Source: Thermoplasmatales archaeon BRNA1 | GTDB lineage: Archaea; Thermoplasmatota; Thermoplasmata; Methanomassiliicoccales; Methanomethylophilaceae | Length of the DNA: 64,000 bases | Reading direction: 5' to 3' | Assembly (NCBI GenBank): GCA_000350305.1 | Contig: CP002916.1 | Coordinates: 806,001 to 870,000 of the forward strand | In this document: positions 2 to 40,947 of the stretch, in pieces | Layout of the letters: each line of letters begins with the position of its first letter | Position numbering within the stretch: position 1 is the first letter of the stretch | Notes under the pieces: generated by a model | Databases searched by the model: none | Seen by the model: only the letters and a program-made list of their open reading frames with translations | What the model was told of the DNA's origin: nothing | Program-made: the position numbers and the translations under genes

Positions 2-1114
2 TATGCAGAACGCCAATGCACGGAGCGTCCATACGAGCATCTCACGGTTTTCCTCCATGGTCGGATCGCGGATGAAAACCCCCATGAGGGGGTCGGCGAG
101 CACGAATATGACGACGGTGAGGATCACCCCGATGACGAGATTGAGCTTTGCAACGTAATCCATGGAAAGACTCATCTTGGAGGCATCCCCCTGGCCCATC
201 CCGGCCGCCGCGACGGGTATCATCGCGGCCGTGAGCGCTTCGGAGGGGACGGAGGACAGGCTGACATACCTCCAGGGCATGTTGAACCACATCACCCCGA
301 GGGTCCCCGCTACGGCGATGATGAACACCCTCTGCGTGAGGACTATGGCGTTGTTGATGATCGAGTCCGCGGCCTTGGGTGCTCCCACGCTCAGAACCTC
401 CCTCATGGCCCCCCATTCGGGGCTGACGGACCGTCTGTCCAGATGAATGGTCATCCGGCCTGTCAGATACCAGCAGAGCCCCAATACAGCGGTGAACAGG
501 GCGGACAGGGTTGTCGCCATGGCCGCACCGAACAGACCCATGCCGAGGACGTAGATCAGGAGCGGATCCAGGGTCATGTTGACGACTGCGGATGACACGA
601 GGACGACCATCGATTTCTTGCCAGCGCCCTCGGAACGCAGAAGAGCCACGACGATGCTGTTCGTTATCAGCGCCCAGGACATCATGAAATACGGGAGGAC
701 GTAGTCCCAGCTCAGTTCGCGGACGTCATCCGCCCCCATATAGTCCACCAACGGGTCGTACAGGACGTACATGACCGATGAGACCGCGATTCCCGCAGCC
801 ACTCCCAGGATGAGAGAGTTTCCGGCCAGTTTGGAGGCACGTTCGAAATCGCCCTTCCCGAGACGGAACGCTATGGTGGAAGTCACGCCCACGCCTATCG
901 AGGTACCGATTGCCGTGATGATCGAGTACAGCGGGGTGATCGTCGATATCGCGGAGGATGCGGCGGACCCCAGACCGGAGGTCCAGAATGTATCTACATA
1001 GAGGTTGACCTGGACGACCAGGTACGAGAACAGCATGGGTATTGCGAGGGCCCTTATCGCGCCCTTCGGCTCACCTAGCAGCGTGTCTACATCCGACTTG
1101 CGGTCCCTGCTCAT
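2..1114 (-). CDS. MATE family efflux transporter, 3' end outside window
   Basis: A minus-strand frame opens with ATG at 1112-1114 and runs through the left edge without a stop, giving 371 visible codons. The protein has many hydrophobic helices and the two-bundle layout of MATE exporters (starts MSRDRKSDVDTLLGEPKGAI, with later runs such as NMTLDPLLIYVLGMGLFGAA). Such proteins expel drugs or other cations using a Na+ or H+ gradient. It begins only 3 nt after the stop of the upstream ABC ATPase gene, so it is probably cotranscribed with the metal-type importer. The substrate cannot be told from sequence. Confidence 0.85.
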   Translation of the reverse strand, partial: MSRDRKSDVDTLLGEPKGAIRALAIPMLFSYLVVQVNLYVDTFWTSGLGSAASSAISTITPLYSIITAIGTSIGVGVTSTIAFRLGKGDFERASKLAGNSLILGVAAGIAVSSVMYVLYDPLVDYMGADDVRELSWDYVLPYFMMSWALITNSIVVALLRSEGAGKKSMVVLVSSAVVNMTLDPLLIYVLGMGLFGAAMATTLSALFTAVLGLCWYLTGRMTIHLDRRSVSPEWGAMREVLSVGAPKAADSIINNAIVLTQRVFIIAVAGTLGVMWFNMPWRYVSLSSVPSEALTAAMIPVAAAGMGQGDASKMSLSMDYVAKLNLVIGVILTVVIFVLADPLMGVFIRDPTMEENREMLVWTLRALAFCI

Positions 1115-1117
1115 GGG

Positions 1118-1915
1118 TCAGACATCTCTCGTCAGTATGGCTTCGTCGAGAAGTACCACCGGAACACCCCTCAGAGAATCGCGGATCACCCTGCACTCGA
1201 TATCGTACACGGTGCGCAGATTATCGATGTTGATGATCTACTCCGGCGTACCGGTCTTGTAGATTACGCCGGGGGTGTTCATAAGGATGATCTGGTCTGC
1301 ATACCTTGCCGTGATGTTGATGTCGTGGCTGATCATCAGGACAATTATCCCCTGGGCGAGCGCGATGGATTTGACCAGTTCCGTGACGTAGATCTGATAC
1401 TTGACGTCGAGATTCGCGGTGGGCTCGTCGAGGATGAGGATCTTGGGTTCCTGGACGAGGCCCCTCGCAAGGGAAACCTTCTGATGCTGCCCCGCAGACA
1501 GTTCGTTGTAGTTCTGGGTGGCGAGCGACTCTATGTGGAGCAGTTTCATCGCTTTCTGTACGATCTTCAGATCGTGTTCGAAGGACCCCCACGTCTTCTT
1601 GTTGTACCTCCCGACCATGACCGTGTCCACGACGGACATCGAGAACACGTCCTGGGAGAACGCAGGGACGTAGCTGACGTAATCCGACAGCTCCTTGCGG
1701 GACATCTTGGAGACATCGGTGCCGTCTATTAGGATCTGTCCGCTCGTGGGTTCGAGGATCTTGCATATGCACTTGACGAGCGTGGATTTCCCCACGCCGT
1801 TGGGTCCGAGGATGCAGTACAGTCCAGGTTTGTCTATCTTCAGGGATATGTCGTTCAGTACCTGGGACTTCCCTTTGTATCTGAAGGACAGGTCGTTGAT
1901 TTCTATGGACGTCAT
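1118..1915 (-). CDS. FepC/BtuD-type ABC transporter ATPase with in-frame TAG at 1238-1240
   Basis: ATPase of an iron-siderophore/cobalamin-type importer. The first 225 codons hold Walker A (GPNGVGKST), the signature LSAGQ and Walker B (ILILDEPT). A TAG follows GTPE, but the same frame continues for 39 residues (starting IINIDNLRTVYDIECRVI) to a TGA at 1118-1120. This tail matches what FepC-like ATPases have there: GTPEE, then a segment like NLRxVYxI. Ending at TGA leaves 3 nt before the MATE start and 4 nt between this start and the permease stop, which fits a tight operon. In a pyrrolysine-decoding archaeon the TAG is probably read as an amino acid; the alternative is a 225-aa truncated but perhaps active ATPase. 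Confidence 0.85.
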
Positions 1916-1919
1916 GCGA

Positions 1920-3059
1920 TCACCAGACCTTGCTGCTCCTCTTCAGAATCAGCATGATGAACAGGGGCCCTCCGACGAACGACATGACCACCCCGACCTG
2001 CAGCATGATGGGGCCCAGGAAGGCACGCCCGATAAGGTCCGCGAGAATCAGGAACATGGATCCGAACATGGCCGATGCGGGGATCAGATACCTGTTGTCC
2101 GCACCCACGAACATGCGGCAGATGTGGGGGGAGACGAGCCCGATGAACCCGATGAGACCCGTGAAACTGACGATGGATGCCGATATGAGGCCGGTAAGCA
2201 GGAGAAGGATGATGCGGAGGGTCTCGGCATCGATACCCATCGCTTTCGCGTTGTCGTCGCCGGTAGCGAGTATGTTGAGTTTCCCGGAAAGGATCTGGAC
2301 TACGATTAGGCCGACGATGCAAATTCCGCCCATGATCGGCAGCTGGTCCAATGTGACCATGGACAGGGACCCGACCTCCCAGGTGTAGATGCTGGAGAGG
2401 TCATCGGGATTTGCCCATAATTTCAGGACGGTTGTGAATGCGTTGAAGATGTACATCACGCCGATACCCGCCATGATCATCGTGGTCGGCGATGCCTTGG
2501 AGGTCTTGGAAAGTACGATGATCATGAATATCGGGACCATCGAACAGACGAATGCCAGCGTGATCAGCGACACGTAGCCGAAATAGAGCACCATGCCGGT
2601 CGAAATGGCAATGGTCGCACCGAAGGACGCTCCGGAAGATACCCCGGTTGTGAAAGGGTCCGCCAACGGATTCTTCAGGACACTCTGCATGACGACTCCG
2701 CAGACTGCCAATCCCGAACCTGCGATGATTCCGCCCAGAACCCTGGGCAGACGTATGTCCACCACCATGTAATCGATGAATTTGTCCTGGATATCCCCCA
2801 TGATGTGGTGGAATATGGTCGAATACGTCTCGACGAAACCGACCTGGGTCTTACCCGCGGAAAGCGAATAACCCGCTATGAGGACGGTTGCCAATGCCGT
2901 CAGGATGATGAAAAAGAGACGGTTTCTCAACTGCTTCCTGTAATAGAAGGTCGTGGTGGAGACACATTCTCCGACAGGTTCTTCCTCCATCCAGTCAATC
3001 ACCGATGTCTTTACAGAATCGCTGATGTTGGATTGAGCCGTCAAATCGGATATTGTCAT
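1920..3059 (-). CDS. FecCD/BtuC-family ABC transporter permease
   Basis: A 379-residue membrane protein of the FecCD family, which carries iron-siderophores, haem or cobalamin across the membrane. Family hallmarks include RLPRVLGGIIAGSGLAVCG, NPLADPFTTGVSSGASFGA and GLVSPHICRMFVG. The first ~55 residues are a hydrophilic extension before helix 1. It is the first gene of a minus-strand operon followed by the ATPase and a MATE exporter. No periplasmic binding protein gene is next to it, so the substrate is undecided. The AT-rich upstream region holds an inverted repeat that may be a metal-responsive operator. Confidence 0.9.
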   Translation of the reverse strand: MTISDLTAQSNISDSVKTSVIDWMEEEPVGECVSTTTFYYRKQLRNRLFFIILTALATVLIAGYSLSAGKTQVGFVETYSTIFHHIMGDIQDKFIDYMVVDIRLPRVLGGIIAGSGLAVCGVVMQSVLKNPLADPFTTGVSSGASFGATIAISTGMVLYFGYVSLITLAFVCSMVPIFMIIVLSKTSKASPTTMIMAGIGVMYIFNAFTTVLKLWANPDDLSSIYTWEVGSLSMVTLDQLPIMGGICIVGLIVVQILSGKLNILATGDDNAKAMGIDAETLRIILLLLTGLISASIVSFTGLIGFIGLVSPHICRMFVGADNRYLIPASAMFGSMFLILADLIGRAFLGPIMLQVGVVMSFVGGPLFIMLILKRSSKVW

Positions 3060-40197: not shown

Positions 40198-40947
40198 ATG
40201 AAGCAGCTCGTACTTGTCAGGCACGGGGAGAGCGAGTGGAACAAGCTCAACCTGTTCACCGGATGGACCGACGTGGACCTCTCCGAGAAGGGATGGGAGG
40301 AGGCCAAAGCCGCCGGCGAGATGATGAAGGCCGAGGGATTCGCCTTCGACAAATGCTACACCTCCTTCCTGAAGAGGGCCATCCACACCGCCCACACCGC
40401 CCTTGCGGCCATGGACCTGGACTGGATCGAGGAGGTCAAGACCTGGAGGCTCAACGAGAGGCACTACGGCGCCCTCCAGGGACTGAACAAGTCCGAGACC
40501 GCGGAGAAGTACGGCGAGGAGTAGGTCCTCCTCTGGAGGAGGTCCTACGATGTCCCCCCGCCGGCGCTCGAACCCTCCGACGACAGGAACCCCGGCAAAT
40601 GTGCCAGATATGCTGGCACCCCTCCCGAGGGACACCCCCTCTCGGAAAGTCTCGAGGACACCGTCGCACGTGTCATACCCTACTACGAGAGCGACATCCT
40701 CCCGGACATCAGGGCTGGTAAGAGAGTGGTCGTGTTCGCACACGGCAACTCCCTCCGCGCCCTCGTGAAGTACCTCGACGGCATGACCGGCGAGGAGATC
40801 GCCAAGGTCAACATCCCCACCGGCGTCCCCCTGGTCTACCAGTTCGACGACTCCATGAACGTCGTGTCCAAGAGGTACCTGGGCGACCAGGAGGCCCTTG
40901 CCGCCAAGCAGAAGGCCGTCGCCGAGCAGGGCAAGAAGAAGGCTTGA
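40198..40947 (+). CDS. gpmA: 2,3-bisphosphoglycerate-dependent phosphoglycerate mutase with in-frame TAG
   Basis: The frame starts [20 protein letters not shown] and reads to KYGEE, then a TAG at 40522-40524 (codon 109). The same frame continues [20 protein letters not shown] and on through [13 protein letters not shown] and [15 protein letters not shown] to a TGA at 40945-40947, ending QGKKKA. In other dPGMs the residue at the TAG is Gln (KYGDEQVKQWRRGF). The product past the TAG holds the conserved RR, the second His (AHGNS) and the C-terminal tail, so a protein stopped at codon 108 would be inactive. Pyrrolysine insertion is the natural explanation. Confidence 0.9.

Follow-up and report, generated by a model that had tools for sequence, protein, structure and literature searches.

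In the methyltransferases MtmB, MtbB and MttB, pyrrolysine (Pyl) is a catalytic residue conserved family-wide, and an archaeal code in which all TAG codons are read as Pyl has reportedly been described by Kivenson et al., 2025. Passages of Borrel et al. 2014 (PMC4153887) give, for Ca. Methanomethylophilus alvus, 16 extra predicted Pyl genes and 1.6% TAG stops, and propose that ambers become stable mutations under constitutive Pyl decoding. For ISO4-H5, 46 genes with an in-frame amber have been listed, including those for adenylate kinase and phosphoglucose/phosphomannose isomerase (PMC5011839).

The gene considered here, from Thermoplasmatales archaeon BRNA1, lies on the minus strand at 1118-1915 of the window, which is the whole 64-kb stretch of DNA that was analysed. 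It starts with ATG at 1913-1915, follows a FecCD-family permease gene of the same operon (1920-3059, minus strand; Pfam FecCD 283.5 bits) whose stop is at 1920, and contains an in-frame TAG (amber) codon at 1238-1240, the minus strand around it reading ...GGTACGCCGGAG TAG ATCATCAAC... The frame past the TAG, IINIDNLRTVYDIECRVIRDSLRGVPVVLLDEAILTRDV (39 aa, codons at 1121-1237), closes at TGA 1118-1120, and only 3 nt separate this TGA from the ATG (1112-1114) of a MATE family transporter gene, which runs off the window (2-1114, minus strand). Besides the TAG, neither a second stop nor a frameshift was found within the gene. On re-reading, all coordinates of the initial annotation proved correct, and so did its observation that ending at the TGA restores a tight operon spacing. 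A gene for a substrate-binding protein does not adjoin the ATPase gene, unlike the situation in the relatives in L112-L115.

We consider it very probable (roughly 0.9) that this TAG is a sense codon at which Pyl is routinely inserted, giving one ATPase of 265 aa with Pyl as predicted residue 226, and that the codon arose as a near-neutral change from GAG. Such a reading draws on the TAG itself, the conserved tail, the sense codons of relatives, the pyl genes, the near absence of TAG stops and the other core genes with TAG, all visible in the DNA, while Pyl insertion in this protein and its efficiency are inferred. In the proposed mechanism, PylS (without an N-domain) would charge tRNA-Pyl(CUA), which would insert Pyl at residue 226, and the single full-length subunit would pair with the upstream FecCD permease. 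A single transversion, GAG to TAG, would have created the amber just where a helix begins behind the GTPE motif, at a residue that is variable and probably lies on the protein surface. It would be tolerated because Pyl-tRNA reads TAG constitutively in BRNA1; the change is presumed near-neutral, Pyl having no special role at this position.

The 39-codon tail is, as judged from comparison with homologues, genuine coding sequence. Conservation is decisive here over open length and codon bias: the tail alone matches homologue C-termini in tblastn (E = 1e-6 to 1e-4), and residue 226 is a sense residue in 99 of the 99 other homologous places (E in 74, D in 17, K in 4, Q in 2 and S in 2), only the ABC ATPase under study having a stop. 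This bears out the conserved tail that had been proposed earlier. The three closest relatives that were checked, L002, L003 and L004, encode Glu at this site with GAG, and V236-Y237 within the tail are invariant in an alignment of 28 sequences. Differences from L002 over the tail are 0.45, 0.32 and 0.58 at the three codon positions, the third being highest. In its codon composition the tail resembles coding sequence but stands out only moderately, since 4.9% of post-stop stretches reach an equal score. The length of the open frame was rejected as proof of coding, since 35% of real stops in the BRNA1 genome also precede at least 39 open codons. Peptides from the tail would be of the kind VIRDSLRGVPVVLLDEAILTR.

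The ATPase motifs, Walker A (GPNGVGKS), signature (LSAGQ), Walker B (ILILDEP) and an H-loop at H197 from the alignment, all lie N-terminal to the amber, as had been noted before, and the protein matches Pfam ABC_tran with 115 bits. An AlphaFold model of the read-through protein has a mean pLDDT of 90.7, and most of the tail, modelled as a helix (230-237, containing the invariant VY) and two strands (241-245 and 252-256), is above 90 and folded into the domain. With Foldseek the match to HmuV (4g1u_C) is full-length, tail included, at a TM of 0.90. The full-length fold with its tail and the adjoining FecCD-type permease, the partner looked for in a FecE/HmuV-type importer, are shared with HmuV, FecE and FhuC ATPases; unlike HmuV and FecE themselves, however, the protein scores below the NCBIfam equivalog cut-offs for both (206 against 261 for HmuV, 190 against 375 for FecE). 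We therefore infer a FecE/HmuV-type importer subunit, of the class that imports metals or heme, for which assignment of the substrate to HmuV or FecE fails these cut-offs, and any transport substrate would be an inferred one. The earlier naming as FepC/BtuD is loosely right, although the best full-length matches are to the HmuV and FecE types.

The genome, from a gut-type methanogen of the Methanomassiliicoccales, is a complete, single contig of 1,461,105 bp whose nearest homologues come from that order, and its GC content of 58% in the sampled part agrees with the tabulated 1.46 Mb and 58% GC (PMC5011839). The use of TAG was surveyed in a sample of 537 kb (37% of the genome), which took in the window, four stretches chosen as targets and a further 20 of 20 kb each that were spread out, with a six-frame codon model that gave about 504 gene calls. 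Simple codon-bias gene calling had produced 18 TAG stops, most of them apparently antisense shadows, and was abandoned for the six-frame model. The calls end in 457 TGA, 38 TAA and 9 TAG, and eight of the nine TAG-ended calls continue as coding sequence: those for the ABC ATPase, GpmA, a GNAT acetyltransferase (L108:5647-6111), two mtmB genes, CarA, a large secreted protein (L130:10107-11861) and GatD. A clean TAG stop was thus not found among the about 504 calls in 37% of the genome. The ninth call (L123:778-1900) is an AT-richer gene whose protein apparently continues in another frame; it lies near a DNA methyltransferase-like gene and may represent a frameshift or a foreign island. When TGA and TAA were searched in the same manner, 7 cases passed the filter, most of which look like ordinary downstream genes starting at Met, and in-frame coding continuation past stops is essentially specific to TAG in this genome.

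Among these genes, the one for GpmA (2,3-BPG-dependent phosphoglycerate mutase; 40198-40947, plus strand) holds the second in-frame amber of the window (TAG 40522-40524), at a site where 18 of 19 aligned relatives have Gln and one has Leu. The gene for CarA, the carbamoyl-phosphate synthase small subunit (L125:10848-11933, G000:490851-491933; minus strand), has TAG as codon 143, where relatives have E, K, A, S or D, and that for GatD, subunit D of the Glu-tRNA(Gln) amidotransferase (L137:15762-17135, G000:1385765-1387135; minus strand), has its in-frame TAG where relatives have mixed sense residues. NCBIfam matches spanning the TAG reach 521 bits for GatD, 426 for CarA and 386 for GpmA, far above the equivalog cut-offs, and each of the three has one match in the BRNA1 genome. 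By these matches, reading of TAG appears to be needed for core proteins; and since core single-copy GpmA, CarA and GatD carry TAG and TAG stops are nearly absent, the amber of the ABC ATPase should be read likewise. A further in-frame TAG (1948-1950) was seen in an 8-oxoguanine DNA glycosylase-like gene (L138, about 1300-2250, plus strand), the site being Glu in the relative G012 (L113, 644-1438, minus strand). In the relative G014 (L159), GpmA has a TAG near the C-terminus (query residue 231), and one TAG was also reported for GatD of G045; gain of ambers at different sites seems to occur in other species.

The Pyl context claimed in the initial annotation is confirmed by a complete pyl system: PylS (262 bits, cut-off 178), PylB (427, 348), PylC (339, 248) and PylD (192, 150) all exceed their NCBIfam cut-offs, and a pylT (tRNA-Pyl) sequence adjoins pylS. 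The cluster of pylT, S, C and D (L109:6658-9548) lies together with the two mtmB genes, with one in-frame TAG each, and a PYLIS_3 (mttB) match was found in the genome. The usual pyl cluster is split, pylB (L108:9298-10374) lying about 0.55 Mb away. No Rfam PYLIS match was found within the 64-kb window, downstream of the ABC amber included, although such an element is not obligatory for Pyl decoding.

A single clear aRF1 is present, with canonical ASNIKS and YxCxxxF motifs, and judged by these could in principle terminate at UAG. Release factor and tRNA-Pyl might then compete at the codon, giving ATPases of 225 and 265 aa in a ratio set by Pyl supply, a reading we regard as improbable. It would fit with the position of all four ATPase motifs before the TAG, with the lack of downstream RNA structure beyond chance (fold z = -1.0), which leaves nothing specific to promote read-through, and with a tail somewhat more diverged than expected: relative to its own core it ranks first of 28 (mean residual -0.092), a small effect that hints at mildly relaxed constraint. 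However, the near absence of TAG as a stop and its presence in core single-copy enzymes argue for efficient read-through, the 225-aa form would be without the invariant VY and the folded C-terminal hairpin, and the amber is kept in no relative, unlike what is expected of a selected switch. The lack of an evident RNA element likewise gives no sign of a regulated second form. The two forms suggested earlier are accordingly not supported, and with a folded tail that contains two invariant residues there is no clear reason to expect a truncated protein. Because TAG hardly serves as a stop and core single-copy enzymes carry private TAGs, read-through should be constitutive, which leaves the earlier suggestion of tuning by Pyl supply without support as well. 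A deliberate ATPase pair made by the amber, in a ratio that tracks Pyl and hence methylamine supply, is very doubtful; if true, it would tie methylamine metabolism to the import of a cofactor, be it a metal, heme or corrinoid-like.

It is less probable again that the TAG is a recent loss-of-function nonsense mutation which halts translation and leaves the conserved tail as a relic. The amber is private to the BRNA1 genome, none having been found at the homologous ABC site in relatives, and the top rank of the tail in divergence would also be consistent with such a loss. A paralogue of the same family, 53% identical and without TAG, is present in the genome, and the TAG-bearing copy might be dispensable. 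Against this stand the TAG specificity of interruptions with coding continuation, the necessary read-through of the TAGs inside mtmB and core enzymes, and an ATPase gene that is otherwise intact. A sequencing or assembly error with GAG as the true codon, although a single-base difference from the nearest checked relatives, is hardly credible in a complete single-contig genome where private TAGs recur in several genes and TGA or TAA interruptions of a similar kind do not.

The reading of the TAG as a routinely decoded Pyl codon is also compatible with the distribution of the codon among relatives. The initial annotation had held that a sense codon in a related strain, with no other trace of amber, would speak against read-through. 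Sense codons do occur in relatives, as in genome G012 (L003), whereas many other ambers are present in BRNA1; and the former do not refute read-through, because neutral gain of an amber in a Pyl-decoding lineage predicts them. Among the 14 genomes of the genus set there is no strain of the same species, with or without the amber.

TAG acts in the BRNA1 genome almost entirely as a sense codon, and the ABC ATPase is one more predicted Pyl protein. With GatD, CarA and GpmA apparently dependent on the reading of TAG, the pyl genes would be essential even without methylamines; if GatD is essential, so is Pyl decoding. Annotation pipelines using code 11 will split or truncate TAG-containing genes of this kind.

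The UAG of the ABC ATPase would be decoded by the same pylT and pylS as that of the MtmB/MtbB/MttB methyltransferases in this genome. Unlike in those proteins, residue 226 is variable (E, D, K, Q or S) and the amber private, so no special function of Pyl is indicated in the ATPase. A close likeness is that to Ca. M. alvus, a different species of the same order, in which in-frame TAGs likewise occur in ordinary genes with sense codons in homologues and TAG stops are few, as far as described in passages of PMC4153887, which do not name the present ABC ATPase; against the 1.6% given there, TAG stops are rarer in the BRNA1 sample (0 clean stops in about 504 calls). In ISO4-H5, as in BRNA1, core enzymes carry ambers, but the genes are different. 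Pyl-read ambers in ordinary genes are already published for Methanomassiliicoccales, and the ABC ATPase adds a case from another species.
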